Of a stretch of 64,000 nucleotides of DNA, positions 9,789 to 57,480 are shown piece after piece. A model generated the notes under the pieces. It did no database searches and was not told the DNA's origin. It saw only the letters and a list, made by a program, of their open reading frames with translations. The position numbers and the translations under genes were made by a program. Position 1 is the first letter of the stretch. Each line of letters begins with the position of its first letter. Source of the DNA: Streptomyces roseifaciens (lineage in GTDB: Bacteria > Actinomycetota > Actinomycetes > Streptomycetales > Streptomycetaceae); assembly GCF_001445655.1 (NCBI RefSeq), contig NZ_LNBE01000004.1:1178001-1242000 (forward strand), written 5' to 3'.

Positions 9789-9906
9789 CGGAGTTCGGCC
9801 GTGCTGAGGGGCGCGGCCGGATGCGCACGACGCCTCCGATGTGAAGGCACGTCCCGTCGAGTGAAGGCACGTCCCGTGTCCGATCCCGTATCCACGGAGC
9901 CTTCCC

Positions 9907-11880: not shown

Positions 11881-12061
11881 AAGGGCGGGAGCGGGGCCCC
11901 GTTCTCCCGCACGCAGCGGGAAGCGGTGGTGCCCCCGGAAGCCCCTCCCGCCGGAGCGGACGGGCACCGCCGCCCCGGAGCACCTCCCAGCCGTAGCCGG
12001 GGAGAGCAACCACCCACCGAGCCACCGGCCCCACCGTGGCCCCACACCCCCAGGGAAGCCC

Positions 12062-13102
12062 ATGTCCGCACCCATCCGGCCCCTGCACCTGGCCGTGAGC
12101 ATCGACCGCCCCGGCGTCCGGGACGCCGAGCCCTACGTCCGCGCGGCCCGCCTCGCCGAGCGCGGCAGGCTGGACTTCGTCACCCTCGGCGACACGCTCG
12201 GCCCGCCCCGGCGCGGCGAGAGCCGCCTCGACGCCCTCGCCGTCCTCGCCCGCGTCGCGCCCGCCACCGAACGCATCGGCCTGGTGCCCACCGTCACCAC
12301 CACCCACACCGAGCCGTTCCACGTCTCCAACGCCGTCTCCACCCTCGACTGGGTCAGCGGCGGCCGCGCCGGCTGGACCGTGGAGGTCTCCGGCACCGAA
12401 GCCGCGGCGCGCCACTTCGGCCGCCGCGCCGCGGCCCCCGCCGACGAGCTGTGGCACGAGGCCGCGGCCGTCGCCGACGTCGCCGCCCGGCTCTGGGACA
12501 GCTGGGAGGACGACGCCGAGATCCGCGACGCGGCCACCGGCCGCTTCGTCGACCGCGACAAGCTGCACCACGTCGACTTCGAAGGCCCCGGCTTCTCCGT
12601 CCGCGGGCCCTCCATCGTGCCCCGGCCCCCGCAGGGCCGGCCGGTGATAGCCGTCGACGCCACCCGCCTGCTGCCCCGCGCGGCCGCCGCCCGCCACGCC
12701 GACGTCGCCTACGTCCGCACCGGGCCCGCGCCCACCCCCGGCGCGGTCCGCGCCGCCCGCGACGACCTGCACGCCCGGCTGCGCTCCCTCGGCCGCGACC
12801 CCGGCCGGATCGTCGTCCTCGCCTCCCTGCCCGTCGCGCTGTACGCGGCCGCCGACGCCGTCGCCCTCGCCGACCTGGCCGGCTCCTGGTGGGCCGACGG
12901 CGTGGTCGACGGCTTCCACTTCCGGCCCGAGGACCCCGACCGGGACCTCGCCCTGCTGGTCGACGGGACCGTCCCCGTACTCCAGCACCGCGGCCTGCTG
13001 CGCTCCTTCTATCCCGGCGGCACGCTCCGCGAGCACCTGTGCCTGCCGCGCCCCGCCAACCGCTACGCCGATCGCCACGCCACCGCGAGGAGGCCCGCAT
13101 GA
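12062..13102 (+). CDS. LLM-class flavin-dependent oxidoreductase
   Basis: A 346-residue bacterial luciferase-like monooxygenase (TIM-barrel, FMN or F420 class). It opens HLAVSIDRPG and contains VLARVAPATERIGLVPTVTT and VSTLDWVSGGRAGWTVE, the typical barrel strands. It ends with SFYPGGTLREHLCLP, as in NtaA/SnaA-type enzymes. The ATG at 12062 follows AGGGAAG; the open frame extends further upstream but without family similarity. Its stop overlaps the next start (ATGA), so the two LLM proteins are translationally coupled. They probably act on the same or successive substrates. Confidence 0.88.
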   Translation: MSAPIRPLHLAVSIDRPGVRDAEPYVRAARLAERGRLDFVTLGDTLGPPRRGESRLDALAVLARVAPATERIGLVPTVTTTHTEPFHVSNAVSTLDWVSGGRAGWTVEVSGTEAAARHFGRRAAAPADELWHEAAAVADVAARLWDSWEDDAEIRDAATGRFVDRDKLHHVDFEGPGFSVRGPSIVPRPPQGRPVIAVDATRLLPRAAAARHADVAYVRTGPAPTPGAVRAARDDLHARLRSLGRDPGRIVVLASLPVALYAAADAVALADLAGSWWADGVVDGFHFRPEDPDRDLALLVDGTVPVLQHRGLLRSFYPGGTLREHLCLPRPANRYADRHATARRPA

Positions 13103-37999: not shown

Positions 38000-39079
38000 T
38001 CACCAGCCGAGGAGTACCAGTTCGCTGGTGAGGCCCGGGCCGAGGGCGAGGAGGAGGCCGGGGGAATCCGGGGGCGGCGGGGTGGTCATTGTTCTGGCGA
38101 GGACGTCGAGCACGGAGGCGGAGGAGATGTTGCCGTGGTCGGCCAGGGAGGCCCGGCTGTGGGCGAGGGCGGCGGGCGGCAGGTCGAGGGAGCGGGCGAG
38201 GGCCTCGATGATTTTCGGGCCGCCGGGGTGGCAGACCCAGGTGGCGATGTCGTTCGCGGTCAGTCCGCGGCCGGCGAGGAAGTCGTGGACCTCGCCGGGG
38301 AGGTGTTTCTCGATGAAGTCGGGGACCTGCGGGGAGAGGAACACGGCGAAGCCGTCGGTGCCCAGGCGCATGCCCATGAGGTGCTCGGTCCCGGGGTGCA
38401 GGCGGCTGCGGGTCGCCAGCAGCGCGGGGCCGGAGGTCTCCCGGGCCCGGTGGGCGCCGAGGACCACGGCGGCGGCCGCGGCATCGCCGAACAGGCTGGT
38501 CGCGACGAGGTTGGCGACCGAGGCGTCCGCGTACTGGAAGTTCAGCGAGCACAGCTCCACGGAGACCAGGACGGCCACCTGGTCCGGGTGGCCCTTCAGA
38601 TAGTCGTGCACTCTCGACAGGCCGGCGGCGCCTCCCGCGCAGCCGAGGCCGAGCATCGGCATGCGCGCCACGTGCTGCGGCAGGCCCACGCGCTGGACGA
38701 GTTCGGCGTCGAACGACGGGACGGAGGCCCCGGTGGTGGTCGTGGTGACGACGGCCCCGACCTCCTCGGGCCGTACGTCCGCCGCCCCGAGGGCCCGGGC
38801 GAGAGCTTCCTGCCCGACCTGACGCGCGGTGGCGGCCCACACCTCGTTGTACTCGGTGAAGGTGCGCGGCCGGGGGTACTCGGCCAGGGGCAGGGAGAGG
38901 TTGCGGTACTCGATGCCCGTGTGGGCGGCGATGCCGGTGAACTGCCGGCGGAGCGCCGGATCGGCGGAGAGGAACGCCCCGGCGAACACGGCGGCGATGT
39001 CCCGCTGGCGGTGCCGGTGCGGCGGTGCGGACACCGCGACGGAGGCCACCCGGGGAGCTGCCGGGCTCGCGTCGCTCAT
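38000..39079 (-). CDS. Type III polyketide synthase (chalcone synthase-like)
   Basis: A 359-residue homodimeric ketosynthase. The catalytic triad is Cys147 ([13 protein letters not shown]), His284 (VCHPGGPKI) and Asn317 ([12 protein letters not shown]). The C-terminal [19 protein letters not shown] replaces the family GFGPGL signature almost exactly. The N-terminus differs clearly from the RppA/germicidin class (no LCKPA-type opening), so starter and product are open. Alkylpyrone, resorcinol and naphthalene products are all possible. No methyltransferase, oxygenase or P450 is adjacent. Confidence 0.94.
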
Positions 39080-43560: not shown

Positions 43561-43623
43561 GGCTCCGGCGGCACCAAGCTGGGCATTGAGGAAATAGCTG
43601 GTGTGCGAACCATCCAGAATTGA

Positions 43624-43642
43624 CAAGGTAAGCCTTACCTAA
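43624..43642. promoter_or_regulatory. Iron box (DmdR1/IdeR-type) of the siderophore operon
   Basis: The 19-base CAAGGTAAGCCTTACCTAA closely matches the inverse consensus TTAGGTTAGGCTAACCTAA of the actinobacterial DtxR-family iron repressors. It ends 15 bases before the GTG start of the first permease, so iron-loaded repressor should block the whole operon. Confidence 0.85.
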
Positions 43643-43657
43643 CCTAGGGTCTCCTCC

Positions 43658-44689
43658 GTGAACGAGACCGCTCCAGGAGCCGTCGCGCCCGCCGTCGGGC
43701 GTGCGGCTCCGATTCGCCGGGCCACCCTGCTCCTTGCAGGCGTGGCCGCGCTCGCCGTGTGCGCGGCGCTCAGCCTCGCGGCCGGCTCGCGCCCGGTGCC
43801 CCTGGCCACCGTGTGGCACGCGCTGGCCGGGGACGACGCCGGACGCGACGGCCTGGTCGTCACCGGGCTGCGCGTCCCACGGACCGTGATCGGCCTGGTC
43901 GTCGGCGCGGCGCTCGGCGTCGCGGGAGCCGTCGCCCAGGGCGTCACCCGCAACCCCCTGGCCTCGCCCACCACCCTCGGCATCAACGCCGGGGCGAGCT
44001 TCGCGGTCGTCACCGCCATCTACGCGCTGGGCCTCACCCGCCCCGTGGAGTACCTGTGGTTCGCCTTCGGGGGCGCCGCGCTCGCCACCGTCGCCGTGCT
44101 GGCGCTCGCCCGCCACGCCGGCGAACTCGACCCCGTACGGCTCGCGCTGGGCGGGACCGTGCTGGCCGCCGTCCTCAGCGCCTGGACCTCCGCGGTCATG
44201 CTGGCGAGCCACCGGACGCTGGACGAGGCCCGCTTCTGGCTGGCCGGTTCGCTCGCCGGGCGGCAGACCGACATCCTGCTGCCCGTCCTCGCGCCCCTGC
44301 TCGCCGGTCTCGTGCTGGCCCTCGCCATCACGCCCGCGCTCAACGCCCTCGCCCTCGGCGACGAGACCGCGCAGGCGCTCGGCGTGCCGGTCGCGAGGGT
44401 CCGCGCCGCCGGCGGGCTGGCCGTGGTGCTGCTCGCCGCGTCGTCCGTCGCCGTCGCGGGCCCGCTGTCCTTCGTGGCGCTCGCCGCCCCGCACCTCGTC
44501 CGCAAGCTCCTCGGCGCGGACCACCGCTGGCTCGTCCCGGGCTGTCTCGTCGCCGGGCCGCTGCTGCTCCTCGGCTCCGACATCGCCGGGCGGGTCGTCC
44601 TGGCCCCCACGGAGATCGAGGTCGGCATCGTCACGGCCTTCCTCGGCGCCCCGATGCTGGCCCTCCTCGCACGGAAGGCGACCCGATGA
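43658..44689 (+). CDS. FecCD-family iron-siderophore ABC permease 1
   Basis: A 343-residue, roughly ten-helix permease of the BtuC/FecCD family. Marks are GLRVPRTVIGLVVGAALGVAGAVAQGVTRNPLASPTTLGI in part, LAGSLAGRQTDILLPV and GPLSFVALAAPHLVRKLLGADHRWLVPG. The GTG start lies 15 bases after the iron box, giving an almost leaderless transcript. It overlaps the second permease by four bases. The role is import of the ferric siderophore across the membrane, as a heterodimer with permease 2. Confidence 0.95.
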   Translation: MNETAPGAVAPAVGRAAPIRRATLLLAGVAALAVCAALSLAAGSRPVPLATVWHALAGDDAGRDGLVVTGLRVPRTVIGLVVGAALGVAGAVAQGVTRNPLASPTTLGINAGASFAVVTAIYALGLTRPVEYLWFAFGGAALATVAVLALARHAGELDPVRLALGGTVLAAVLSAWTSAVMLASHRTLDEARFWLAGSLAGRQTDILLPVLAPLLAGLVLALAITPALNALALGDETAQALGVPVARVRAAGGLAVVLLAASSVAVAGPLSFVALAAPHLVRKLLGADHRWLVPGCLVAGPLLLLGSDIAGRVVLAPTEIEVGIVTAFLGAPMLALLARKATR

Positions 44690-45852
44690 GCGACCTGATG
44701 GGCGAGCGGACGGGGGAGCGGACGGGCGAGCGGATGCAGGGCGCGAACGGCACCGGGCCGCGGCCGGCAGCGCGCCGGAGCCCGGCCCCCGCGCCCGCCC
44801 GGGCGTTCCTCCCGCACCGCCCCGGCGCGGGCGGATCCGCCCTCGCCCGGCAGCGGCGCCGCATCGCCCTCCTCTCCGCCGCGGCCGTCCTCCTCCTCGC
44901 GGTCCTCCTCGCCCTGGGCCTCAGCGCGGGCGAGGTCCACGTGCCGCCCCTGGACGCGCTGCAAGCCCTCGTCGGCCTCGGCGACAGCGCCGACGTGATG
45001 CTCGTTCAGGAGCTGCGCGCCCCCCGCGCCGTCGCCGCCATCGTGGCCGGTGCCGGGCTCGCCGTCGCCGGGACGCTGATGCAGCGCGTGCTGCGCAACC
45101 CGCTCGCCTCCCCGGACGTGATCGGCGTGACCGGCGGCGCCTCCCTCGGCGCGGTCGCCATCCTCGCCACCGGCGCTCCGGCCGTCCTCACCCCGGCCGG
45201 AGCGCTCGGCGGCGGCATGCTGGCGGCCCTGCTGCTCGCAGTGCTCTCCTGGCGCGGCGGCGTCACCGTCACCCGCATCGTGCTCGTCGGCCTCGCCGTG
45301 CAGCAGGGACTCGCCGCCGTCGTGAACCTCTTCATCGTCCGGTTCCCCGCCGAACTGGCCGCGGACGCGCTGCAGTGGACCACCGGCTCGGTCTACGGCC
45401 GCACCTGGACCGAGACGGGCACCGGCGGCGCGCTCGTCCTGTCCGGCGTCGTGCTCGCCCTCGCCGGCCACCGCAGGCTCGCCGTCCTCGACCTCGGCGA
45501 CGAGTCCGCCGGCGGGCTCGGGATCGCCCCGAACGCGGCCCGCCTTCAGCTCCTGCTGCTCGCCGTCCTCCTGGCGTCCGTCGCCGCCGCCCTCACCGGG
45601 CCCGTCGGCTTCGTCGCCCTGGCCGTGCCGCACATCGTGCGGTTCCTGGCCGGGCCCCCGACGGCCGGCTCGCTCGTCCTCACCGCGCTCGGCGGCGCCG
45701 TCCTGCTGCTCGCCTCCGACCTCGCCGTCCTGCACCTGCTGCCCGTCCACGGCCTGCCCGTCGGGGTCGTCACCGCCACGCTCGGGGCCCCCTGGCTGCT
45801 CGTGCTGATGCTGCGTCAACTCAAGCCCACCGCTGGGAGCACCACCCGATGA
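44686..45852 (+). CDS. FecCD-family iron-siderophore ABC permease 2
   Basis: A 388-residue permease with an unusual 60-residue charged, repetitive N-terminal extension (GERTGERTGER). The transport domain follows, with VQELRAPRAVAAIVAGAGLAVAGTLMQRVLRNPLASPDVIGV in part, WTTGSVYGRTWTE and GPVGFVALAVPHIVRFLAG. It is coupled by ATGA to permease 1 and by ATGA to the ATPase, so stoichiometric synthesis is expected. Confidence 0.95.
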   Translation: MSDLMGERTGERTGERMQGANGTGPRPAARRSPAPAPARAFLPHRPGAGGSALARQRRRIALLSAAAVLLLAVLLALGLSAGEVHVPPLDALQALVGLGDSADVMLVQELRAPRAVAAIVAGAGLAVAGTLMQRVLRNPLASPDVIGVTGGASLGAVAILATGAPAVLTPAGALGGGMLAALLLAVLSWRGGVTVTRIVLVGLAVQQGLAAVVNLFIVRFPAELAADALQWTTGSVYGRTWTETGTGGALVLSGVVLALAGHRRLAVLDLGDESAGGLGIAPNAARLQLLLLAVLLASVAAALTGPVGFVALAVPHIVRFLAGPPTAGSLVLTALGGAVLLLASDLAVLHLLPVHGLPVGVVTATLGAPWLLVLMLRQLKPTAGSTTR

Positions 45853-47021
45853 GCGACGACCGTACGACCACGCCCGGCCCCACGGCCACATCCGGCCCCA
45901 CGGCCACGCCCGACTCCGCGGCTGCCGACGGTTCTGCTGTCACCCGCGGCACTGCGGCTGCCGACGGTTCCGCTGCCGCCCGCGGCACCGCGACCGCCCA
46001 CAGCCCGGCCGCCACCGGCACCCCGGCGCCTGCCCGCGGCCCCGTGGCCGACGGAGGCCCGGCATCGTCCCGAGCCTCCGTGGCCACCGGGGGCCCCGCG
46101 GCCGGTCCGGCGGCGTCCCGCGGCTCCGCCGACCCCCGCGGCTCTGCCGGCTCCGCCGCCCCGGCTGCGTCCCGCGACCCCGCCGCCCCCGCCGCCCCGG
46201 CGGCCCCCCGCGGCCTCGCCGCCCACGGCCTGAGTCTCGGTTACGCGGGCCGCACCGTCGTCGACGGCGTCGACCTCGCCGTCCCCGGCGGCGCTGTCAC
46301 CGCCGTCGTCGGCCCCAACGCTTGCGGCAAGTCCACCCTCCTGCGCGGACTCGCCCGCCTGCTGGCCCCGACCGCCGGCACCGTCACCCTCGACGGCGCC
46401 GACATCCACCGCATGCCCGCCCGCGCCCTCGCCCGCCGTCTGGGCCTGCTCCCGCAGCAGGCCGTGGCCCCCGAAGGCGTCACCGTCGAGGGGCTCGTAC
46501 GCCTCGGCCGCTACCCGCACCAGCGCATGCTCACCCCCTGGTCCAAGGCCGACCAGGCCGCCGTCGAAGAGGCCCTCGCCCGTACCGGCACCGACGTCCT
46601 GCGCGACCGCCCGGTCGACCAGCTCTCCGGCGGCCAGCGGCAGCGCGCCTGGATCGCCCTGGCCCTCGCCCAGGACACGCCCCTGCTGCTCCTCGACGAG
46701 CCCACCACCTTCCTCGACCTGCGCCACCAGCTCGACGTGCTCGACCTGGTCGAGGAGCTCAACGCCGAGGCCGGCCGCACCGTCGTGATGGTCCTGCACG
46801 ACCTCGGCCAGGCGGCGCGGTACGCCGACCACCTCGTGGTCATGTGCGACGGCAGACCGGCCGCCGCCGGCCCGCCGGCCGACGTCCTCACCGCCGAACT
46901 CGTCGAGGAGGTCTTCCAGGTGGAGTGCCGGGTCGTGCCCGACCCGGAGACCGGCACGCCCCTGGTCGTCCCCCGGGCCCGCTCCGGACGGCGGCGCGCC
47001 CCCGGCCGGCCCGCCGCCTGA
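45849..47021 (+). CDS. Iron-siderophore ABC ATPase (FecE/FepC-like) with Ala-rich extension
   Basis: A 390-residue protein whose ATPase part starts near residue 125 (AAHGLSLGYAGRTVVDGVDL). Walker A is GPNACGKST, the signature is LSGGQRQRAWIALALAQ and Walker B LLLLDEPTTFLD, and there is an H-loop His in VMVLHDLGQ. The usual family length is about 260-290, so the first 120 residues are extra: low-complexity Ala/Pro/Ser/Thr/Gly, probably disordered. No internal start with a good RBS was obvious, so the ATG at 45849, overlapping the permease stop, was kept. Confidence 0.93.
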   Translation: MSDDRTTTPGPTATSGPTATPDSAAADGSAVTRGTAAADGSAAARGTATAHSPAATGTPAPARGPVADGGPASSRASVATGGPAAGPAASRGSADPRGSAGSAAPAASRDPAAPAAPAAPRGLAAHGLSLGYAGRTVVDGVDLAVPGGAVTAVVGPNACGKSTLLRGLARLLAPTAGTVTLDGADIHRMPARALARRLGLLPQQAVAPEGVTVEGLVRLGRYPHQRMLTPWSKADQAAVEEALARTGTDVLRDRPVDQLSGGQRQRAWIALALAQDTPLLLLDEPTTFLDLRHQLDVLDLVEELNAEAGRTVVMVLHDLGQAARYADHLVVMCDGRPAAAGPPADVLTAELVEEVFQVECRVVPDPETGTPLVVPRARSGRRRAPGRPAA

Positions 47022-47120
47022 GGCCCACCCGCACCCGCCGGACCTCGGCCCCAAGCCCCACCCCCCAAGCCCCCACCCCCCACACCCGTCCCTCCCCTAC
47101 CGCTCAGACTGGAGTCCGCC

Positions 47121-48125
47121 GTGACCACCCACCTCAGACCACCCCTCCACCGGCTGCGCAGGGCGCTCGCCGCGCTCCTCGCCGTGATCATCGGCACGGC
47201 CGTGCTCGCCGCGTGCGGCGGCGACGAGAAGGCGAAGGACGAGGGCAAGGCCGCGGGCGGCACCGGCTTCCCGCGCTCGATCACCCACGCCATGGGCACC
47301 ACCGAGATCAAGCAGAAGCCGAAGCGCGTCGTCGTCCTCGACACCGGCGAACTCGACGACGTCACCATGCTCGGCATCGAGCCCGTCGGCGCGGTCTCCC
47401 CCCACATGAAGACCGAGGGCGGCTTCCCGCAGTACCTGTCGGCGAAGACGAAGAACACCAAGGACGTCGGCCCCATGGCCGAGCCGAACATCGAGCGGAT
47501 CATCTCCCTCAAGCCCGACCTGATCCTGTCCTCCAAGGTCCGCCACGCCAAGGTCTACGACCGCCTCAAGGGCATCGCCCCGACCGTCTTCACCGAGACC
47601 ACCGGCGCGCCCTGGAAGGAGAACCTCAAGGTCCACGCCAAGGCACTCGGCCTGGAGAAGGAGGCGGAGGCGGCCATGGGTGCGTACGAGAAGCGCGCCA
47701 AGGCCCTCGGCGAGGAGATCAAGAAGAAGAACAACGGCACGATGCCGACCGCGTCCGTCGTCCGCTTCGTCGCCGGCCCCACGCGCCTCTACCAGAAGGC
47801 CTCCTTCAGCGGCGTCGTCCTCTCCGACACCGGCCTGCGCCGCCCCGCCTCGCAGGACGTCGACGCCCCGATGACGGACGTCTCGCCGGAGCAGATCGAC
47901 AAGGCCGACGCCGACCTCGTCTTCGTCACCGTCGCCGACGACCCCGAGAAGACCCAGCAGAGCGCCGTCCAGGACAACCCGCTGTGGAAGGGCCTCGGCG
48001 CCGTCAAGAACGACAAGGTCGTCCAGGTGCCGGACGAGACGTGGATGTCCGGCATCGGCATCCAGGCCGCCAACCGCGTCGTGGACGACATCGCCAAGGC
48101 CGCCGGCGTCGACGTCCCCAAGTAG
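47121..48125 (+). CDS. Iron-siderophore binding lipoprotein
   Basis: A 334-residue periplasmic-binding-fold protein (FepB/FhuD class), membrane-anchored outside the cell. The lipobox is VLAACGG (Cys near residue 32). The mature part has TTEIKQKPKRVVVLDTGELDDVTMLGIEPVG, LKPDLILSSKVRHAKVYDRLKGIAPTV and a C-terminal DETWMSGIGIQAANRVVDDI. The GTG at 47121 lies 99 bases past the ATPase. It captures the ferric siderophore for the two FecCD permeases. Confidence 0.95.
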   Translation: MTTHLRPPLHRLRRALAALLAVIIGTAVLAACGGDEKAKDEGKAAGGTGFPRSITHAMGTTEIKQKPKRVVVLDTGELDDVTMLGIEPVGAVSPHMKTEGGFPQYLSAKTKNTKDVGPMAEPNIERIISLKPDLILSSKVRHAKVYDRLKGIAPTVFTETTGAPWKENLKVHAKALGLEKEAEAAMGAYEKRAKALGEEIKKKNNGTMPTASVVRFVAGPTRLYQKASFSGVVLSDTGLRRPASQDVDAPMTDVSPEQIDKADADLVFVTVADDPEKTQQSAVQDNPLWKGLGAVKNDKVVQVPDETWMSGIGIQAANRVVDDIAKAAGVDVPK

Positions 48126-48295
48126 CCGGTCCGCGGGGCCGGTTCACCCCGGCCCCGGACCCGGCCACCGGCAGCACCCCCGTTCCCCGGGCCCGCCGCC
48201 GGGCCGTCACCCCCTCCTCAACGGCCCGGCGGCGTCCCCCCCCCCACGTCCCCCCACGCATCACCGCCCCCCGCAGCCTGTCGAAAGGCGCTCCT

Positions 48296-49537
48296 GTGCG
48301 GCTTCACCTCCTCGCCCTGAACCCGACCGACTCCGTCACCCTCGGCTTCCTGCCCGCGGCCGCCCGTCTCGGAGTCGAGGTCACGCTCCTCACCGACCAG
48401 CCCGCCGCCCACCGCCGCGCGTACGAACAGAGCGTCGCCGACGGCGGCAAACTGCCCGAACTCTCCGTCCTCGGCTGCGACGTCACCGACTTCCGCGAGG
48501 TCGTCGCCCGGATCTCCGCGCTCGGCCGGTCGGCCCGCCCCGACGCCGTCTTCACCAACAGCGACCACCTCCAGCCCCAGGCCGCTCTGGCCGCCGCCTA
48601 CTTCGGCCTGCCCGGCAAGGACTGGCGCTCCGCCCTCGACGCCAAGAACAAGGCCCAGCTGCGCCGCCGCCTCGCCGAGGCCGGCGCCGACACCGTCCGC
48701 TCCGCCGAACTCGCCCCCGGCGACGAGCCGGAGGGCCTGCCCGGCCGGCTCGCGGACCTGGGCCTGCCCTTCCCCTGCGTCGTCAAGCCGCGCGAGGGCG
48801 TGGCCAGCGAGGACGTCGTGCTCGCCGAGGACGAGGCGTCCCTCGTCCGCCACTGTCACGACATCCGCACCCGCAGGCCCGGCGCCTCCCTCCTCGTGGA
48901 GGAGTACCTGGACGGCGAGCTGCACACCCTGGAGACGCTCGGCGACGGCAGCACCCTGCACGCCCTCGCCTCCTTCCGCACCCGCCTGTCCCCGCTGCCG
49001 CACTTCATCGAGGAACGCCTCGACCTGCTGCCCGCACCGCCGCAGCCGCACACGGAACAGGTGCTCGCCCAGCTGCGCGCCCTCGGCGTCGGCTTCGGCG
49101 CCTGCCACACCGAGTACGTGGCCCAGGGCTCCCGCGCCCGCATCATCGAGGTCAACTACCGCGCCATCGGCGACCAGTGCGACCTCGCCCTCGCCGACGC
49201 CCTCGGCGTCCCCCTCTTCGAGCACGTCCTGCGCACCCACCTCGGCGAGCCGCTGCCCGCGGACCTCGGCGCGCGACCTGACGGGCGGCTGCGCGTGGAG
49301 TATGTCTGTGCGGACCGCGGGGGTACGCTCGAAAAGGCCCCCCCGGCGAGCGACACCGAGCGCGACGGCGTACGGCTGGTCTACCGGCCGCTGCGCGGAA
49401 CCGGCGAGGCGCACCCGCTCCATCGCACCAACCGCGACTACCTCGGCGTCATCAGGGCGACCGGCACCGACCAGGGCCGGATCGACCGGGAAGTCGACGC
49501 GTTCCTGGCCGCACAGCGCTGGGAGATCATGTCATGA
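48296..49537 (+). CDS. ATP-grasp ligase, PvsA-like (siderophore biosynthesis)
   Basis: A 413-residue ATP-grasp enzyme that would activate a carboxylate as acyl-phosphate and form an amide. Marks are the N-terminal Rossmann-like RLHLLALNPTDSVTLGFLPAAARLG, the ATP-binding strand LPFPCVVKPREGVASEDVVLAED, SLLVEEYLDGELHTLETLGDG and the Mg-binding IIEVNYRAIGDQCDLALAD. The GTG start follows GAAAGG. As the first of five genes in the order ligase, NIS, MFS, NIS, decarboxylase, it is the positional equivalent of pvsA in vibrioferrin loci. It overlaps the next gene by four bases. The substrate is inferred only from synteny. Confidence 0.88.
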   Translation: MRLHLLALNPTDSVTLGFLPAAARLGVEVTLLTDQPAAHRRAYEQSVADGGKLPELSVLGCDVTDFREVVARISALGRSARPDAVFTNSDHLQPQAALAAAYFGLPGKDWRSALDAKNKAQLRRRLAEAGADTVRSAELAPGDEPEGLPGRLADLGLPFPCVVKPREGVASEDVVLAEDEASLVRHCHDIRTRRPGASLLVEEYLDGELHTLETLGDGSTLHALASFRTRLSPLPHFIEERLDLLPAPPQPHTEQVLAQLRALGVGFGACHTEYVAQGSRARIIEVNYRAIGDQCDLALADALGVPLFEHVLRTHLGEPLPADLGARPDGRLRVEYVCADRGGTLEKAPPASDTERDGVRLVYRPLRGTGEAHPLHRTNRDYLGVIRATGTDQGRIDREVDAFLAAQRWEIMS

Positions 49538-51282
49538 GCCTGACCAGCACGGACGTGGTGGAGGGCGACCTCCTGAGCCGCGTCCTCAGCACCCTGCTCC
49601 GCGAGGACGCCTACGGGCTGCGCCGCCACGCCCTCACCGAGCACCGCCCCGACGGCGACTGGCTCCACCTGCGCACCGCGGACGGGACCGTCCTGCTGCC
49701 CGTCGGCCCCGACGGCTTCCAGTGCGAGGTCCGGGTGCGCGAACCGCTCGCCGAGACGGACGGCGGCGTCCTCACCGGGCTGCGCCCCGTCCTCACGCGG
49801 CTGCGCGCCGCCGTGCCCCCCGAGGACCGGGCCGGCTACGACGCCTTCCTCGCCGAGTGCGAGGAGGCGCTGGCCGCCGCCCGCCTGCACGACCGCGTCC
49901 GCGACGGCGTCACCGCGCACCTGGCGGAGACCTACGGACAGCGCACCGACGGCTGGACGGGCCCGGGCGGCTCCCTCGCCTACGACACCCTCGCCGCCTA
50001 CCGCGACCACCCCGTCTACCCCACCGGCCGCTCCCGCGCCGGCCTCAGCGAAGACGAACTACGCGCGTATGCGCCCGAGTTCCACCCCTCCTTCGCCCTG
50101 CGCTGGCTCGCCCTCCCGCACGGCGCCGTGCGCGGCGACCGGTCCGGCCTGCCCTCCTGGTGGCCCACCCCCGCCGGGCTCGGCCTGAGCGGGCTGGACG
50201 CCACCCACGTCGCCCTGCCCGTCCACCCGCTCACCGCGGCCGGCCCCCTCGAGGCGGCCCTGCGCGAGGCCGGACTCGGCGGATCCGCCCGCTTCGCCGA
50301 GAAGCCCTGGCTGGAGGTGCTGCCCACCCTCTCCACCCGCACCGTCGCCGTCGCCGACGACCCCGCCGTCCACCTCAAACTGCCCCTCGCCACCGCCACC
50401 CTGGGCCTGCGCAACCGGCGCACCATCAAGCCCGGCACCCTCCTCGACGGCGAGACCGGCCAGCGCCTCCTCGAAGAGGTCATGGCCCACGAGCCCCGCT
50501 TCGCCGGGCGGATCCTCCTCGCCGACGAGCGCACCCACCTGCAGTCCGACCACGAACTCCTCGCCGTCCTCGCCCGCCGCTACCCCGCCGGCCTGCAGGA
50601 CGCCCACGTCCTCCCCGTCGCCGCGCTGCTCGCCCGCACCCCGGGCGGCTCCCTCGTCGCCGACGAACTCGCCGACCGCTACTACGACGGCTCCCTCGCC
50701 GCCCTCCTCGACGCCTACCTCACGCTCCTCCTGGACTGGCACACCACCCTCTTCTCGTACGGCATAGGCCTCGAATCCCACCAGCAGAACACCTCGCTCG
50801 TCCTGGACGCCCCCGGCGGCCGGACCCGTATGCGGCTGCTGCTGAAGGACAACGACGGGCCGCGCGTGCACGGCGTGCGCCTGGCCGCCCGGCTCGGCGG
50901 GGCGGCCGCCGACCTGCTGGGCTTCGACGACCGGCGCATCCTCGTGGCCGGCGACGGGCCCGTGGCCGACGTGTTCGCCACCATCACCGTCCACCTCTGC
51001 GCCGCCGCCCCCCTCTTCGAGCTCGCCCGGCTCGGCCGCGCCCCCCTCGGCGAGCTCCTCGCCCGCCTGCGCGACCGGCTCGCGGAAGCAGTCGAACGCA
51101 CCGCCCGCACCGCCCCCGGCGCCGCCGCCGTGCTGCGCGCCCGCGTCCTCGACGCCGACCGGCTGCCGGTCAAGGCCATGGTCACCGCCGGCACCCTGCT
51201 CACCAAGGAGCGCTCGGGCGCGGCCGACATCAACAAGCACTACGTCCAAGGGCCCAACTACCTGCGGGGCGCGGGCAGATGA
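49534..51282 (+). CDS. NIS synthetase (IucA/IucC family), PvsB-like
   Basis: A 582-residue NRPS-independent siderophore synthetase that adenylates a citrate-type carboxylate and forms an amide or ester. Family marks are LPVHPLTAAGPLE (in place of HPWQ), LEVLPTLSTRTVAV, HLKLPLATATLGLRNRRTIKPGT in part, and YGIGLESHQQNTSLVLDAPG. The C-terminal FhuF-like part has TAGTLLTKERSGAADINKHYVQGPN. It is in the pvsB position and ATGA-coupled both to the ligase and to the exporter. Which carboxylate and nucleophile it joins cannot be read from the sequence. Confidence 0.94.
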   Translation: MSLTSTDVVEGDLLSRVLSTLLREDAYGLRRHALTEHRPDGDWLHLRTADGTVLLPVGPDGFQCEVRVREPLAETDGGVLTGLRPVLTRLRAAVPPEDRAGYDAFLAECEEALAAARLHDRVRDGVTAHLAETYGQRTDGWTGPGGSLAYDTLAAYRDHPVYPTGRSRAGLSEDELRAYAPEFHPSFALRWLALPHGAVRGDRSGLPSWWPTPAGLGLSGLDATHVALPVHPLTAAGPLEAALREAGLGGSARFAEKPWLEVLPTLSTRTVAVADDPAVHLKLPLATATLGLRNRRTIKPGTLLDGETGQRLLEEVMAHEPRFAGRILLADERTHLQSDHELLAVLARRYPAGLQDAHVLPVAALLARTPGGSLVADELADRYYDGSLAALLDAYLTLLLDWHTTLFSYGIGLESHQQNTSLVLDAPGGRTRMRLLLKDNDGPRVHGVRLAARLGGAAADLLGFDDRRILVAGDGPVADVFATITVHLCAAAPLFELARLGRAPLGELLARLRDRLAEAVERTARTAPGAAAVLRARVLDADRLPVKAMVTAGTLLTKERSGAADINKHYVQGPNYLRGAGR

Positions 51283-52478
51283 CGGCCGTACTCCACGGCG
51301 GCCGCACCCGCGAGGAACGGCCCGTGCTGCGCACCCGCCAGGTCCACGCCGTCGCCGCCTGCTACTTCGTCGCGTCGTTCGCCGCCCTCGGCCTGCCCCC
51401 CTACCTCACCGAGATCCTGCCCTCCCTCGGCGACCACGGCGCCCGGTGGGCCGGGCTGCTCTACATCGTCCCCACCGTCTTCGGCGCCCTCGGCGCACCC
51501 CTGTGGGGCCGGCTCGCCGACCGCTACGGCCGCAAGCGCCTCCTGCTGCGCGCCCAGTTCGGCCTCGCCCTGTCCTTCCTGCTCGCCGGGACGGCCGACA
51601 GCCTGCCCGCCTTCGCCGCCGCCCTCGTCCTCCAGGGCGTCCTCGGCGGCACCTTCGCCGCCTCCAACGGCTACCTCGCCGCCTCCCTCGACGGCCGGCG
51701 GCTCTCCTGGGCGCTCACCCTGATGCAGGGCAGCGCCCGCCTCGCGCTCGTCGCCGCGCCCGTCGTCGTCGGCGGCCTCACGCCCTGGCTCTCCCCGCAC
51801 CGCCAGTACGCGCTCCTCGCCGTACTGCCGCTGGCCGCCGCCCTGATGCTGGCAGCCCTCCCCGAACCGCCGCCCACGGCGCCGCCCGCACCCGCCGCCC
51901 CGGAGGAGGAGGGCCCGCCGCCGGGCCCGCTGCGCACCCTCTACGCCCTCGAATTCGCCTTCGTCCTCGCCACCGTCATCTCCTACCCGTACCTCATCAC
52001 CCTGGTCGCCGAGCGGCTGCCGGGCCTCGGCCCCTCCGAGAGCGGCGCGCTCTTCGCCCTCCCGCACGCCTGCTACCTGCTGCTGGCCAAGCCCGTCCAC
52101 GCCGCCGTCGCCCACCGCCCGCACCTCGGCGCCGTCACCGGCTTCGCCTGCGTGGCCGTAGCCCTCGCCGGGCACTGGGGAGCCGGCACCGTCGCCTCCT
52201 TCGTGGCGCTGCGGCTGCTCCTGGGCGCCGGCATGACGCTGGGCCTGGTCAGCCTGTCCGCGCTCGCCGCCGAGGCGAGCCGGGGCCGCGGGCCCGGCCG
52301 CCTCTTCGGCTCGCTGGAGTTCATATCCAAGGCCGGAGCCGTCGTCGCCGGAGCGGCAGCCGCCGCCTCCACCGGCATCTGGGGCCCGGCCGCACCCGCC
52401 GTCGCAGGATCCGCCGTCGCCGCCCTGACGGCCGTCATCAGCACCCCCACCCTCCTCCGCACCCGCTGGAGCCGCTGA
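51279..52478 (+). CDS. MFS exporter, PvsC-like (siderophore export)
   Basis: A 399-residue, 12-TM major facilitator. The A-motif GRLADRYGRKRLLL sits between helices 2 and 3. The C-terminal half starts after the acidic Pro-rich loop at about residue 200 (PPTAPPAPAAPEEEGPPPG). It lies between the two NIS synthetases, coupled to the first by ATGA and adjacent to the second by TGAATG. That is the position of pvsC, the vibrioferrin exporter. Export of the newly made siderophore is the natural role. Confidence 0.92.
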   Translation: MTAVLHGGRTREERPVLRTRQVHAVAACYFVASFAALGLPPYLTEILPSLGDHGARWAGLLYIVPTVFGALGAPLWGRLADRYGRKRLLLRAQFGLALSFLLAGTADSLPAFAAALVLQGVLGGTFAASNGYLAASLDGRRLSWALTLMQGSARLALVAAPVVVGGLTPWLSPHRQYALLAVLPLAAALMLAALPEPPPTAPPAPAAPEEEGPPPGPLRTLYALEFAFVLATVISYPYLITLVAERLPGLGPSESGALFALPHACYLLLAKPVHAAVAHRPHLGAVTGFACVAVALAGHWGAGTVASFVALRLLLGAGMTLGLVSLSALAAEASRGRGPGRLFGSLEFISKAGAVVAGAAAAASTGIWGPAAPAVAGSAVAALTAVISTPTLLRTRWSR

Positions 52479-54191
52479 ATGTCCTCCGCAGCCGCCGCCG
52501 CCCTCCCCGGCGTGGCCACCGCCGACCACGTGGTCGCCCACACCCTGCTCAACTGCCTGCTCCGCGAGGTCTCCGGGCCCGAGCACCAGACCGCCGTCAC
52601 CGACGGCCACCTGCTGCTGCGCCTGCCCCGCTGCGGCGTCCTGCTCCGCGTGGGGCTGCGGCGCGCCTCCTTGTTCGGCGCGCACCGCTTCACCGGCCCC
52701 GTCCGGACCGAGCGCGACGGCACCTGGACCGAGCTGACGTGGCAGGAGCTCGCCGAGCACATCCACCGCGAGCTGGAGCTGCGCACCGGCGTCCGCAACG
52801 AGGAGTTCCTCGGCCAGGTGGCCGCCAGCCACGCCGGCGTCACCGCGGCCCTCGGCGCCCCGCGCGGCGCGGCGGGCCCCGACGCGTACATGGAATCCGA
52901 GCAGTCCCTCCTGTTCGGCCACCGCTTCCACCCCACCCCCAAGGCCCGCACCGGCGCCCCCGAGGACTGGGGCCGCTACGCCCCCGAGGCCCGCGCCCGC
53001 TTCCCCCTGCACCACCTGGCCGTGCGGCGCGAGCACGTACGCCAGGAGGCCGCGGCCGACGGGGCCCTCGCCGCCCTCGACCGGCAGCGGCCCGTCCCCG
53101 ACGGCTACCGGCTGCTGCCCGCCCACCCGTGGCAGTACGCGATGCTGCGCGAGCACCCCGTGCTGCGCGCCGCCGTCACCCGCGGCGACGTCCTCGACCT
53201 GGGCCCCGGCGGCGAGCCCTTCGAGCCGACCGCATCCGTGCGGACGCTCTACGACGGCCGGGACTTCCTCAAGTTCAGCCTCAACATCCGCATCACCAAC
53301 TGCCTGCGCAAGAACGCCGAGTACGAGCTGACCGGCGCGGTCGCCCTCACCCGCCTGCTGGAGCCCGTCGCCGCCGACCTCGCGGCCCGCTTCCCGGGCG
53401 CCGGCCTGCTGCGCGAACCCGCCTACCGCACCCTCGACCTCGGCAGCCGCGAACTCGCCGAGGGCTTCGGCGTCATCGTCCGCGAAGGGCTCGGCGCCCG
53501 CCTCGCCCCCGGCGTCACCGGGCTGCTGGCCGCCGCCGTCGCCGACGAGTACCCCACCGGCGGCGCCCACCTCGGCGCACTGCTGCGCGGCGGCGGCCCC
53601 GCGGAGGCCCTCGCCTGGTGGAAGGCCTACCTCGCGCTGCTCGTCCCGCCGGTGCTCGCGGCCTACTTCGACCACGGCGTCGTCCTCGAACCCCACCTGC
53701 AGAACGTCGTCCTCGGCGTCGGCGCCGACGGCATGCCCCGGCAGGTCCTCTTCCGCGACCTGGAGGGCACCAAGCTGCTCCCCGGCCACCACGCCGCGGC
53801 CCTCGCGGCGCTCCCCGCGGACGTGGCCGGGCCCCTCACGTACGACCGCGAGCGCGGCTGGGACCGCGTCGTGTACTGCCTGGTCGTCAACCACGTCGCC
53901 GAGATGCTCGCCGCCCTCGCCGACCGCCACCCCCGCCTCGAACCCGAGCTGTGGACCGCCGTCCGCGGCATCCTCGCCGACCGCGCCGCCGCCCACGGCA
54001 ACCCCCCGCTGCTGCGCGCCCTCGTCGCCGGGGTGCCGCTGCCCGCCAAGGCCAACCTGCTCACCCGCTGGGAGCGCAAGGCCGACCGGGACGCCGGCTA
54101 CGTGCGCATCTCCTCGCCCCTGGTGCCGGACCTGCTGTCCGCCCTCACCACGGCCGCCCGCACCGAGACCACCTGGAGCGCAGCACAGTGA
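52479..54191 (+). CDS. NIS synthetase (IucA/IucC family), PvsD-like
   Basis: A 570-residue second NIS synthetase. Marks are HPWQYAMLREHPVL (His216), PTASVRTLYDGRDFLKFSLNIRITNCLRKN in part, YFDHGVVLEPHLQNVVLGVG (Glu404, His406) and FRDLEGTKLLPGH. The C-terminus has PLPAKANLLTRWERKADRDAGYV, the typical IucA/IucC ending. It occupies the pvsD position and overlaps the decarboxylase start by four bases (GTGA). Two NIS enzymes imply two carboxylate couplings in the product. Confidence 0.95.
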   Translation: MSSAAAAALPGVATADHVVAHTLLNCLLREVSGPEHQTAVTDGHLLLRLPRCGVLLRVGLRRASLFGAHRFTGPVRTERDGTWTELTWQELAEHIHRELELRTGVRNEEFLGQVAASHAGVTAALGAPRGAAGPDAYMESEQSLLFGHRFHPTPKARTGAPEDWGRYAPEARARFPLHHLAVRREHVRQEAAADGALAALDRQRPVPDGYRLLPAHPWQYAMLREHPVLRAAVTRGDVLDLGPGGEPFEPTASVRTLYDGRDFLKFSLNIRITNCLRKNAEYELTGAVALTRLLEPVAADLAARFPGAGLLREPAYRTLDLGSRELAEGFGVIVREGLGARLAPGVTGLLAAAVADEYPTGGAHLGALLRGGGPAEALAWWKAYLALLVPPVLAAYFDHGVVLEPHLQNVVLGVGADGMPRQVLFRDLEGTKLLPGHHAAALAALPADVAGPLTYDRERGWDRVVYCLVVNHVAEMLAALADRHPRLEPELWTAVRGILADRAAAHGNPPLLRALVAGVPLPAKANLLTRWERKADRDAGYVRISSPLVPDLLSALTTAARTETTWSAAQ

Positions 54192-55402
54192 TCCTTCCCC
54201 GTGTCGCCGGGCACGCCGCCGGCCTGCCCGGCGAGGAACTGCCCGCCTACGTCTACGACCTGGCGGCCCTGACCGGGCACGCCGCCGAAGTGCGCGCGGC
54301 CCTGCCGCCGGAGACCGAGCTGTACTACGCGGCCAAGGCCAACCCCGCCCCCGAGCTCCTGCAGGCCCTCGCCCCGCACGTCAGCGGCTTCGAGGTCGCC
54401 TCCGGCGGCGAACTGGCCCACGTCCGCAAGGCCGTCCCCGGCCTGCCGCTCGCCTTCGGCGGCCCCGGCAAGACCGAGCCCGAACTGCGGCTCGCCCTCG
54501 ACCTGGGGACCGAGCGCATCCACGTGGAGAGCGAGAGCGAACTGCGGCTGCTCGCCGCCCTCGCCGCCGAACGCCCCGGCGGGGCGCCCGTGGACATCCT
54601 GCTGCGCGTCAACCTCCCCGTGAGCGAGGGTGACGGCGCGAGCCGCGACGGGCACGGCGAGCTGGCCGGCGCGGCCCTCGCCATGGGCGGCCGGCCCAGC
54701 CCCTTCGGCCTCGACCCGCGCCGCGCCGAGGCGTGCCTGCCCCTGCTGCGCGGCACCCGGCTGCGGCTGCGCGGCATCCACGCCCACCTGGCCAGCGGGC
54801 TCCCCGCGCCCGCCCTGCTCGCCGTCGCCGCCCGCGTCACGGCCTGGGCGCGCGAGCTGGACACCCGGCACGGCCTCGGGCTGGACGAGGTGAACGTGGG
54901 CGGCGGCATGGCCGTCGACTACGCCCGCCCGCACACCCGCTTCGACTGGGCCGCCTACGGCGCGGGCCTCGCCGCACTCGCCGCCGCGCACCCCGGCTAC
55001 ACCCTGCGCATCGAGCCCGGCCGCGCGCTGACCGCCCACTGCGGCTGGTACGTCACCGAGGTCCTCGACGTCCGGCACAGCCACGGCGAGGCGTTCGCGG
55101 TCGTGCGCGGCGGCACCCACCACATGCGCACCCCCGCCGCCAAGGGGCACGACCACCCCTTCACGGTGCTGTCCGTCGACACCTGGGAGCGCCCCTGGCC
55201 GCGCCCGGCCGCGCTGGACGAACCGGTCACCCTCAGCGGGCAGTTGTGCACCCCGAAGGACGTCCTCGCGCGGGCGGTCCCGGTCGCCGAGCTGCGGGCG
55301 GGGGACCGGATCGCCTTCGCGATGGCGGGCGCGTACGCCTGGAACATCTCGCACCACGAGTTCCTGATGCACCCGGCGCCCTCCTTCCGCTTCCTGCCCT
55401 GA
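54188..55402 (+). CDS. PLP-dependent fold-III decarboxylase, PvsE-like
   Basis: A 404-residue pyridoxal-phosphate decarboxylase of the ornithine/diaminopimelate (fold III) family. The PLP lysine is Lys50 in ELYYAAKANPAPELL. GGGMAVDYA and IEPGRALTAHCG bind phosphate, and Cys354 lies in SGQLCTPKDVLA at the dimer active site. The start is GTG at 54188. In vibrioferrin and staphyloferrin B pathways such enzymes decarboxylate a citryl-amino acid or free amino acid to give an amine such as ethanolamine. It closes the pvsABCDE-like block. Confidence 0.94.
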   Translation: MILPRVAGHAAGLPGEELPAYVYDLAALTGHAAEVRAALPPETELYYAAKANPAPELLQALAPHVSGFEVASGGELAHVRKAVPGLPLAFGGPGKTEPELRLALDLGTERIHVESESELRLLAALAAERPGGAPVDILLRVNLPVSEGDGASRDGHGELAGAALAMGGRPSPFGLDPRRAEACLPLLRGTRLRLRGIHAHLASGLPAPALLAVAARVTAWARELDTRHGLGLDEVNVGGGMAVDYARPHTRFDWAAYGAGLAALAAAHPGYTLRIEPGRALTAHCGWYVTEVLDVRHSHGEAFAVVRGGTHHMRTPAAKGHDHPFTVLSVDTWERPWPRPAALDEPVTLSGQLCTPKDVLARAVPVAELRAGDRIAFAMAGAYAWNISHHEFLMHPAPSFRFLP

Positions 55403-55629: not shown

Positions 55630-57480
55630 ATGTGCGGGATCACCGGATGGATCTCCTACGACCAGGACCTCACCGCCCTCACGACGGCGCGCGGCACGCT
55701 CGACGCGATGACGCACACCATGGCCTGCCGCGGACCCGACGCCGGCGGCACCTGGCTCGGCACCCACGCCGCCCTCGGCCACCGCCGCCTCGCCGTCATC
55801 GACATCGAGGGCGGCGCCCAGCCCATGCGCGTCGAACGCGACGGCCGCACCCTGCTCGTCACCACCTACAGCGGCGAGGTCTACAACTACCGCGAGCTGC
55901 GCGCCGAGCTGGAGAGCCGCGGGCACGCCTTCCGCACCAGCAGCGACACCGAGGTCGTCCTGCACGCCTACCTCGAATGGGGCGAGGACTTCACCGAGCG
56001 CCTCAACGGCATGTACGCCTTCGCCCTGTGGGACCCGCGCACCGAGGAACTCCTCCTCGTCCGCGACCGCATGGGCATCAAGCCGCTGTACTACCACCCC
56101 ACGCCCGACGGCGTCCTCTTCGGCTCCGAGCCCAAGGCCATCCTCGCCCACCCCGCCGTACGCCCCGCCGTCGATGCCGAAGGCCTCGCCGAGCTCATCG
56201 CCTTCACCAAGACCCCCGGCCACGCCGCCTACAAGGGCATGTACGAACTGCCCCCCGGACACACCGCCCGCATCCGCCGCGGCGGCCTGACCCTGCGCCG
56301 CTACTGGGCCCTGGAGGCCCGCGAGCACACCGACGACCTCAAGACCACCGTCCGTCACGTGCGCGACCTGCTCGACGACATCGTCGGCCGCCAGCTCATC
56401 GCCGACGTCCCCCTGTGCACCCTGCTCTCCGGCGGCCTCGACTCCTCCGCCATCACCGCCCTCGCCGCCGCCGGAGCCGGCCCCGTCCGGTCCTTCTCGG
56501 TCGACTTCACCGGCCACACCGAGAACTTCCGCCCGGACCCCCTGCGGCCCACCCCCGACGGCCCCTACGCCCACGCCCTCGCCGCCCACGTCGCCTCCCA
56601 CCACTCCGACATAGTTCTCGACGCCGCCGACCTGATGGCCAAGGCCAACCGCGACGCCGTCATCGCCGCCCGCGACATGCCCATCAGCGGCTTCGGCGAC
56701 GGCGACGTCTCCCTCTACCTGCTCTTCAAGGCCATCCGCGAACAGTCCACCGTCGCCCTGTCCGGCGAGTCCGCCGACGAGGTCTTCGGCGGCTACTCGT
56801 GGTTCCACAACCCCGACCACGTGCACGCCGGCACCTTCCCCTGGGCCGCCGCCGGAGCCGCCGACCGCTTCGCCGGCGAGCACAGCGGAGGCCGCTCCGC
56901 CCTCCTCGACCGCGGCCTCCTCGCCAAGCTCGACCTCGCGGGCCACGAGGACACCCGCTACCGCGAAGCCCTCGCCGAAGTGCCCCGCCTGCCCGGCGAG
57001 ACCGGCCTGGAACGGCGCATGCGGGAGATCAGTTACCTGCACCTGACGCGCTTCGTCCAGCTCCTCCTCGACCGCAAGGACCGCGCCAGCATGGCCGTCG
57101 GCCTGGAGGTCCGCGTCCCCTTCTGCGACCACCGCCTCGTCGAGTACGTCTTCAACACCCCCTGGGCCATGAAGACCTTCGACGGCCGCGAGAAGTCCCT
57201 CCTGCGCGCCGCCACCCGCGACCTCCTGCCGGACGTCGTCGCCGACCGCGTCAAGAGCCCCTACCCCAGCATCCAGGACCCCCGCTACGCCGCCGCCCTG
57301 CGCGCCGAGCTCTCCCGGGTCCTCGCCGACAAGGACGCGCCCGTACGGCCCCTGCTCGACACCGCGGCCGTCGCCGGCTCCCTCGCCGACGACGCCGGCG
57401 AGTCCTTCCGCTCCGCCACCGAACTCGTCCTCAACCTGGACGCCTGGCTGCGCATGCACGACACCGCGCTGGAGCTGTAG
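55630..57480 (+). CDS. asnB: Asparagine synthase (glutamine-hydrolysing)
   Basis: A 616-residue class II glutamine amidotransferase fused to an ATP-pyrophosphatase-type synthetase. Cys2 (MCGITGWISY) is the glutaminase nucleophile; HRRLAVIDIEGG and GEVYNYRELR follow. The PP-loop SGGLDSS sits at 267-273, with the synthetase segments LSGESADEVFGGY and LDRKDRASMAVGLEVRVPFCDHRLVE. ATG 55630 follows GGGGAG. It lies 228 bases behind the decarboxylase with its own likely promoter, so it may not belong to the siderophore operon. Sequence features are those of ordinary AsnB, although amidation of a secondary metabolite cannot be excluded. Confidence 0.94.
   Translation: MCGITGWISYDQDLTALTTARGTLDAMTHTMACRGPDAGGTWLGTHAALGHRRLAVIDIEGGAQPMRVERDGRTLLVTTYSGEVYNYRELRAELESRGHAFRTSSDTEVVLHAYLEWGEDFTERLNGMYAFALWDPRTEELLLVRDRMGIKPLYYHPTPDGVLFGSEPKAILAHPAVRPAVDAEGLAELIAFTKTPGHAAYKGMYELPPGHTARIRRGGLTLRRYWALEAREHTDDLKTTVRHVRDLLDDIVGRQLIADVPLCTLLSGGLDSSAITALAAAGAGPVRSFSVDFTGHTENFRPDPLRPTPDGPYAHALAAHVASHHSDIVLDAADLMAKANRDAVIAARDMPISGFGDGDVSLYLLFKAIREQSTVALSGESADEVFGGYSWFHNPDHVHAGTFPWAAAGAADRFAGEHSGGRSALLDRGLLAKLDLAGHEDTRYREALAEVPRLPGETGLERRMREISYLHLTRFVQLLLDRKDRASMAVGLEVRVPFCDHRLVEYVFNTPWAMKTFDGREKSLLRAATRDLLPDVVADRVKSPYPSIQDPRYAAALRAELSRVLADKDAPVRPLLDTAAVAGSLADDAGESFRSATELVLNLDAWLRMHDTALEL

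Follow-up and report, generated by a model that had tools for sequence, protein, structure and literature searches.

The 64-kb window analysed in this work, taken from the 8.64-Mb assembly (13 contigs) of Streptomyces roseifaciens, carries nine co-directional genes that very probably constitute a Pvs-type iron-siderophore operon, related to pvsABCDE of Vibrio and xss of Xanthomonas. In it, orthologues of PvsA–PvsE, among them the major facilitator superfamily (MFS) exporter, are combined with a conserved iron box and with an importer whose relatives in similar operons form one clade. Pvs-type loci are already known in actinomycetes and, judging from its sequence, the window operon is a genuine member of this known family.

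Scanning with Pfam and NCBIfam assigned to the nine plus-strand genes (43658–55402; all operon coordinates are those of the window) the domain order FecCD, FecCD, ATP-binding cassette (ABC) ATPase, Peripla_BP_2, ATP-grasp, IucA_IucC with FhuF, MFS, IucA_IucC with FhuF, and Orn_Arg_deC. The original prediction, an earlier reading of the DNA letters, had identified the last five genes (ATP-grasp, IucA/IucC, MFS, IucA/IucC and fold-III decarboxylase dependent on pyridoxal phosphate, PLP) with pvsA-B-C-D-E and had placed two FecCD permeases, an ATPase and a lipoprotein directly upstream; the former is confirmed by domains and orthology together, and the latter by the Pfam and NCBIfam scans. In the list below, NIS denotes the siderophore synthetases that are independent of non-ribosomal peptide synthetases.

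43620–43650, plus strand: putative promoter read from the sequence, TTGACA (43620–43625) and TAGGGT (43645–43650) with a 19-base spacer
43626–43640, no strand assigned: DtxR/IdeR/DmdR-type iron box AGGTAAGCCTTACCT, a 15-base palindrome with 0 mismatches to AGGTNAGNCTNACCT, between the promoter hexamers
43658–44689, plus strand: FecCD-type iron-siderophore permease 1, GTG start, possibly leaderless (PF01032, 2e-89)
44686–45852, plus strand: FecCD-type permease 2, overlapping permease 1 by 4 bases (PF01032, 2.5e-75)
45849–47021, plus strand: ABC transporter ATPase, FecE-like, with a low-complexity N-terminal extension (FecE NF008409, 8.7e-92, under the cut-off)
47121–48125, plus strand: importer substrate-binding lipoprotein (PF01497, 1.3e-31; lipobox-like LAAC at the N-terminus)
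48296–49537, plus strand: PvsA-type ATP-grasp ligase (identity to known PvsA; conserved columns)
49534–51282, plus strand: PvsB-type NIS synthetase (tree clade; conserved columns)
51279–52478, plus strand: PvsC-type MFS exporter (conserved columns)
52479–54191, plus strand: PvsD/AcsD-type NIS synthetase (AcsD 2w02, 8.6e-69; tree clade; conserved columns)
54188–55402, plus strand: PvsE-type PLP fold-III decarboxylase (6knh, 1.9e-74; conserved columns)

Four-base overlaps, claimed earlier for most junctions, were found at five of the eight (permease 1–permease 2, permease 2–ATPase, A–B, B–MFS and D–E); the MFS and D genes abut, and gaps of 99 and 170 bases separate the ATPase gene from the binding-protein gene and the latter from pvsA. 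The best start of the ATPase is the ATG at 45849, which overlaps the permease 2 stop by 4 bases and has GGGAG upstream; the domain scans of this protein used a reading from 46080, and its N-terminal extension resembles that in the closest relative of the operon, locus L030. No terminator-like site was found on the plus strand between 43400 and 55800, and the 170-base gap in front of pvsA contains no second iron box. As had been predicted, and as is expected in a Gram-positive organism, a Pfam scan of 20 window proteins revealed no TonB-dependent receptor PvuA.

Orthology of the biosynthetic proteins

Sequence comparisons confirmed the five biosynthetic proteins as predicted orthologues of PvsA–PvsE, beyond mere likeness in gene order, with the exporter matching PvsC. 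A tblastn search of plasmids detected PvsA relatives in Rhodococcus, Cupriavidus, Pantoea (where the annotator had named the protein PvsA), Vibrio and Piscirickettsia, with 31–50% identity between the window PvsA and the proteins of these loci, and the order A-B-MFS-D-E is kept in all six annotated Pvs loci from plasmids. Species genomes were further scanned with a PvsA alignment, and the best 80 loci, ranked by likeness to a Vibrio PvsA, include Vibrio, Pseudomonas, Azotobacter, Xanthomonas and others. When searched by tblastn with the window proteins, 74 of these 80 displayed the same order; the exceptions are L079 and L116 (no E match), L093, L134 and L146 (A or A-B only) and L132 (D-E before A), the available stretch ending within 7 kb after the A match in all of them except L132.

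In a quick maximum-likelihood tree of NIS synthetases (97 rows, with a long-branch warning for the outgroup rows), 40 PvsB-type rows, two paralogues from A-B pairs among them, lie on one side of a branch with a support of 100 (Shimodaira–Hasegawa-like approximate likelihood-ratio test, SH-aLRT). The window PvsB groups with proteobacterial PvsB, apart from the adjoining AcsA/SbnC. The 38 PvsD-type rows share one clade (99) with two AcsD proteins and two PvsD-like proteins from Streptomyces; SbnE falls outside it, and AcsC and SbnF are found elsewhere. AcsD stands on the proteobacterial PvsD side, hence PvsD is inseparable from AcsD by this tree. Such trees, and a comparison of the five proteins with PvsA–E/XssA–E and SbnC–H, had been suggested with the original prediction; their outcome agrees with it, in that PvsB falls in the Pvs clade and PvsD in the PvsD/AcsD clade.

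The orthology was examined further by columns at least 95% conserved in non-actinobacterial Pvs proteins from 84 loci (after length filtering, 83 rows for A, 55 for B, 76 for MFS, 80 for D and 79 for E, one of them, L146, not proteobacterial). The window proteins keep 78/108 of these columns in A, 92/119 in B, 70/94 in MFS, 97/119 in D and 117/135 in E. Only 50–58 of the 119 PvsB columns are kept by AcsA/SbnC, and of the 94 PvsC columns 27 and 40 are kept by the achromobactin-type and SbnD-type MFS proteins, respectively. Identity between the window and proteobacterial proteins amounts to 33–39% for A, 33–37% for B, 33–38% for D and 44–53% for E, compared with 43–60% among the Pvs proteins of Vibrio, Pseudomonas/Azotobacter and Xanthomonas.

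These comparisons bear directly on whether the genes encode an achromobactin- or staphyloferrin B-type pathway in place of a Pvs one, which appears highly improbable. SbnC, SbnF and FslA are the sole NCBIfam matches of the NIS synthetases, and the closest Protein Data Bank match of PvsD is AcsD; the NCBIfam matches, however, are far under the cut-off, PvsB is placed outside the AcsA/SbnC rows, and no window protein falls with AcsC/SbnF in the tree. Furthermore, neither a third NIS synthetase (SbnF/AcsC) nor SbnA, SbnB or an HpcH aldolase was present among the 20 scanned window proteins, and the ATP-grasp gene replaces the third synthetase of those pathways.

Iron box and promoter

The DtxR-family iron box that had been predicted before the first gene was located at 43626–43640, where AGGTAAGCCTTACCT is the sole exact match to AGGTNAGNCTNACCT in the window. 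Two window matches occur with up to two mismatches against 0.81 expected, a number reached by 17 of 100 shuffles, so that the match count in the window alone is unremarkable. The whole genome has 12 exact sites and, with up to one mismatch, 32 sites per strand compared with 5 for a reversed control pattern. Of 40 other loci (37 from the search of the genus, described below, and three from plasmids), 30 have a box with no more than one mismatch in the 400 bases 5′ of their first gene, among them all 13 other full operons, i.e. those with importer and MFS genes. Random segments drawn from these loci, without exclusion of the true sites, contained such a box in 221 of 8000 cases, and mononucleotide shuffles in 9 of 20000. 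One protein of the host, in the whole genome, has the DtxR-family domain Fe_dep_repr_C (PF02742).

The iron box takes up most of the bases that separate TTGACA from TAGGGT. Since the GTG start comes 7 bases past TAGGGT, the operon mRNA may be leaderless, and the promoter elements, their spacing and the GTG layout are repeated in L030. A promoter scan limited to TATAAT-like boxes and spacers of 16–18 bases found none.

Importer

The earlier reading had regarded the importer as a parallel of PvuBCDE. This would hold for function and is unsupported for descent: in trees of the binding protein and permease 1, the two components for which importer trees were built, the gamma-proteobacterial rows are set apart from the window with supports (bootstrap/SH-aLRT) of 97/97 and 100/100, respectively. 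In both trees the window proteins share their side with host paralogues and Rhodococcus, the paralogues having been chosen by likeness to the window and several rows being long-branched; in the binding-protein tree, the support for joining the window to host paralogues is only 90/88. The window binding protein is 43 and 48% identical to host paralogues and 25–30% identical to the proteobacterial proteins. Because the gamma-proteobacterial proteins lie apart, the importer is best seen as a functional parallel of PvuBCDE, and it looks separately recruited, not descended from it.

The binding proteins of full-type loci (the window and 12 of the 14 loci having one) form a single clade (99/96), as do their permease 1 proteins (98/98). 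The top NCBIfam match of the window binding protein is an Fe(3+) dicitrate binding protein (5.2e-40, under the cut-off). The probable substrate is deduced from linkage and Fec-type similarity, with matches under the curated cut-offs.

Distribution and two gene arrangements

Of 150 genomes sampled from the genus, 37, including that of the host, gave a PvsA match with an E-value of at most 1e-40. In a phylum-wide draw, in which four candidates per genome were scored, PvsA was found in 3 of 396 genomes, namely the host and two others of the same genus. Among the best 120 of 2647 PvsA matches, the closest is 96% identical (Streptomyces sp. KLMMK), and the named rows are nearly all Streptomyces, with one Streptosporangium and one Stenotrophomonas label. 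Replicons of Rhodococcus, Embleya and Nonomuraea also carry Pvs relatives; the loci of the latter two, like that of S. chartreusis, are of the A-B-D-E kind.

The 37 loci retrieved from other genomes (L030–L066) fall mostly into two arrangements: 13 have the importer and MFS genes, and 19 consist of A-B-D-E only. In L057 permease 1, the binding protein and MFS were detected, in L059 MFS only, and L050 is an A-B pair; L038 and L042 are cut by contig ends. When A, B, D and E were concatenated for a quick tree (41 rows, excluding L038, L042 and L050), full and transport-free types alternated, seven changes being needed and six of them forced by supported branches, with two Rhodococcus loci treated as the full type. 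Loss from a full ancestor appears to be the simpler account because the MFS protein is orthologous to proteobacterial PvsC and its gene has the same position; repeated loss of the transport genes also fits the alternation of arrangements on the tree while the importer is one clade. Four-gene loci lying near the window lineage, L031–L035, have no exporter, importer or iron box in the stretch fetched.

The host has a second pvsA-pvsB pair (minus strand, 9814–12716 of L015; about 902813–905715 of contig C2), 64–65% identical to that of the window. Neither this pair nor L050 (genome G060) has a detectable pvsD, pvsE or iron box. The neighbours of the host pair encode a cytochrome P450, a frame with flavin-dependent (FAD) oxygenase and MFS parts, and an MMPL protein, and its re-use in another pathway is possible. 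As the host holds such a pair lacking D/E and an iron box, Pvs enzymes can be used elsewhere, and the window genes could likewise serve another metal or a non-siderophore product, e.g. a zincophore or an antibiotic building block, for which the four-gene loci without an iron box might also speak. Against this stand the exact iron box in the window promoter, the box in every other full operon and the Fec-type importer, which make such a role improbable here.

Two neighbouring genes were rejected as members of the operon. The asparagine synthase gene (55630–57480) is shared, among 38 loci of the genus, only by L030 and L034, each time flanked by a GntR gene; because of this restriction, and because in L034 it adjoins a four-gene locus, it is regarded as chromosomal flank. 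The upstream carboxyltransferase gene is likewise flank, being common to both arrangements (L030–L036). A type III polyketide synthase gene (chalcone synthase family) is located near the operon on the minus strand (38000–39049).

Relation to known systems

The window shares with Vibrio pvs and Xanthomonas xss the five orthologous genes and their order, an orthologous exporter and iron regulation, here predicted; it differs in that no TonB receptor was found, in protein identities of 33–53%, and in an importer that seems to have another origin and is encoded upstream on the same strand. The Vibrio and Xanthomonas genes are regulated by Fur, whereas the window box is of the DtxR type. The plasmid loci of Rhodococcus sp. 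WAY2 and R. oxybenzonivorans (L009 and L014) show A-B-MFS-D-E, 45–55% identity and an adjacent binding protein, as in the window, and differ by an aldolase/citrate lyase gene and by ATPase and permease genes downstream on the other strand. An aldolase/citrate lyase family gene also adjoins the Pvs loci L007 and L008, so that it is seen in Pantoea, Cupriavidus (pHG1) and Rhodococcus, and none was seen at the window locus; it may supply citrate specifically for the pathway, as in staphyloferrin B.

Achromobactin-type (Sodalis pSG1, L147) and staphyloferrin B-type loci (Pseudonocardia L148, Methylocystis L153), so named here from gene content, have AcsD/SbnE-, AcsE/SbnH- and AcsA/SbnC-like enzymes in common with the window. 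They differ in having a third NIS synthetase where the window has the ATP-grasp ligase, and in possessing an aldolase/citrate lyase and diamine-supplying genes. L148 is found on plasmid pBCI1-2 of Pseudonocardia sp. EC080619-01, an ant-associated actinomycete (2383–13864), and encodes SbnA, three NIS synthetases, MFS, aldolase, an annotated alanine racemase, a metal-dependent regulator and a binding protein. On plasmid p1 of Streptomyces sp. BHT-5-2 (L151, 7412–15348), a PvsD-like synthetase, 59% identical, stands beside a different NIS synthetase, a decarboxylase, an MFS protein and a two-component system; a scan of eight proteins detected no ATP-grasp domain, and L151 probably represents another NIS cluster type.

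The claim that this architecture is undescribed in actinomycetes was too strong in view of the 37 of 150 genus genomes and of two published cases. The avs cluster of S. avermitilis (SAV7320-7323) has been called, in the accessible text of its report, a vibrioferrin-like polyhydroxycarboxylate siderophore cluster with three synthetase components and one diaminopimelate decarboxylase (PMC9394381). Judged by the published annotation, its content matches the A-B-D-E loci and, unlike the window operon, the four genes listed in that text include no exporter or importer. For S. tunisialbus, an antiSMASH region 'Vibrioferrin 18%' is given in the available part of the paper (PMC7385001). An alpha-hydroxycarboxylate siderophore is described for Glutamicibacter sp. 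ZY1 from a chrome azurol S (CAS) colour test, and the same type is cited there for Streptomyces sp. S073, both in the portion of the source at hand, which gives neither structures nor genes (PMC12093950). Among the papers listed in searches of the open-licence literature in PubMed Central, no report of an isolated vibrioferrin or Pvs-type product from an actinomycete and no description of a full importer-plus-exporter operon in actinomycetes were found.

Proposed pathway and product

From the genes described above we infer all enzymatic steps, the transport roles and repression. Under iron-replete conditions, a DtxR-family repressor bound at 43626–43640 would cover the promoter. On iron starvation, PvsD would link citrate to the hydroxyl of L-serine, and PvsE would decarboxylate the citryl-serine adduct to citryl-ethanolamine. 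PvsA would then attach an amino acid to the amine of citryl-ethanolamine, after which PvsB would add 2-oxoglutarate, which would then cyclise. The siderophore would be exported by the MFS protein, and the ferric complex re-imported by the lipoprotein, the two permeases and the ATPase. This order of steps is proposed because PvsD resembles AcsD, which joins citrate and L-serine; because PvsE aligns over its full length with chain 6knh, which we take to be the staphyloferrin B decarboxylase SbnH with a citryl adduct as substrate; because PvsB lies near AcsA and SbnC, the 2-oxoglutarate-adding synthetases; and because the PvsA profile matches L-amino acid ligases (3vot, 7e-28). PvsA also occupies the place of the third synthetase in related pathways. 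Two reviews, in the parts accessible, ascribe the ester to PvsA and the amides to PvsB and PvsD (PMC5577590, PMC6836290), and one of them states that the specific functions of the Pvs enzymes are untested. The NIS tree suggests that PvsA, PvsB and PvsD divide the work otherwise than given there.

The chance that the product is vibrioferrin itself may be put at about even. A metagenome-cloned pvs operon expressed in E. coli led to secretion of vibrioferrin, according to the available text of PMC5577590, and vibrioferrin is reported for Xanthomonas xss in that of PMC5130282. Vibrio and Xanthomonas PvsA, B, D and E, both sets giving vibrioferrin, differ at 48–57% of residues, and those of the window differ from them at 47–67%.

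Several results weigh against the assignment to the Pvs type or to vibrioferrin. The PvsD columns are kept by AcsD (87–88/119), a host NIS paralogue (73) and SbnE (67–70), and the PvsE columns by AcsE (112/135) and SbnH (95–104); PvsD and PvsE by themselves would be compatible with other citrate pathways. In the column comparison as a whole, diagnostic value therefore lies with A, B and MFS, to a lesser degree with D and scarcely with E. The window proteins stand outside the group of proven vibrioferrin producers. The importer was rejected as a PvuBCDE orthologue, the gamma-proteobacterial rows lying apart in both trees. The stricter 19-base consensus TTAGGTTAGGCTAACCTAA gave no match with up to three mismatches. 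The box is missing within 400 bases in 10 of the 40 other loci; among these, L040, L055, L057 and L059 carry it further upstream, and the fetched stretches of L031–L035 and L050 contain none. Finally, position 290 of PvsA, right after the motif E-[IV]-N-Y-R (EVNYR), is alanine in 37 of 40 genus rows and serine in all 81 scan rows, and position 295 is cysteine in 36 of 40 genus rows and arginine in 75 of the 81.

The last two differences lead to a sub-case of the Pvs assignment, to which somewhat less than an even chance is given: the operon product could be a different siderophore with the citrate/ethanolamine/2-oxoglutarate skeleton and another amino acid or acyl end, installed by an altered PvsA (and PvsB). 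The substitutions S290A, R295C and W307L beside the ATP-grasp motif of PvsA are nearly fixed in the genus group, as are N416H, Q487H and Y548A in PvsB, the latter partly common to Rhodococcus and Nonomuraea. Such lineage-wide changes beside an active-site motif of PvsA leave room for a different amino acid, and hence for a new analogue. Most conserved columns, however, are kept in both proteins, cysteine at PvsA 295 is also seen in 4 of the 81 scan rows, and the substitutions could be drift. A wider proposal is offered tentatively and is on the whole doubtful: that the altered PvsA of actinobacterial Pvs operons installs another amino acid, giving an undescribed family of citrate siderophores in about a quarter of the genus, and, jointly, that the A-B-D-E loci are secondary losses whose owners have other transporters or another use for the molecule.

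Implications

Iron uptake in Streptomyces is usually discussed in terms of desferrioxamines, a view with which the presence of PvsA in 37 of the 150 sampled genomes, the host among them, contrasts. The full operon offers a defined, iron-box-controlled target for finding the product, paired with a candidate dedicated binding protein, and the alternation of complete and transport-free loci would make it possible to test how such a pathway survives the loss of its exporter and importer. A tentative identification of vibrioferrin in a single soil sample, with Azotobacter named as known producers, is given in the accessible part of PMC7527475; Streptomyces may be a further candidate source of vibrioferrin in soil.

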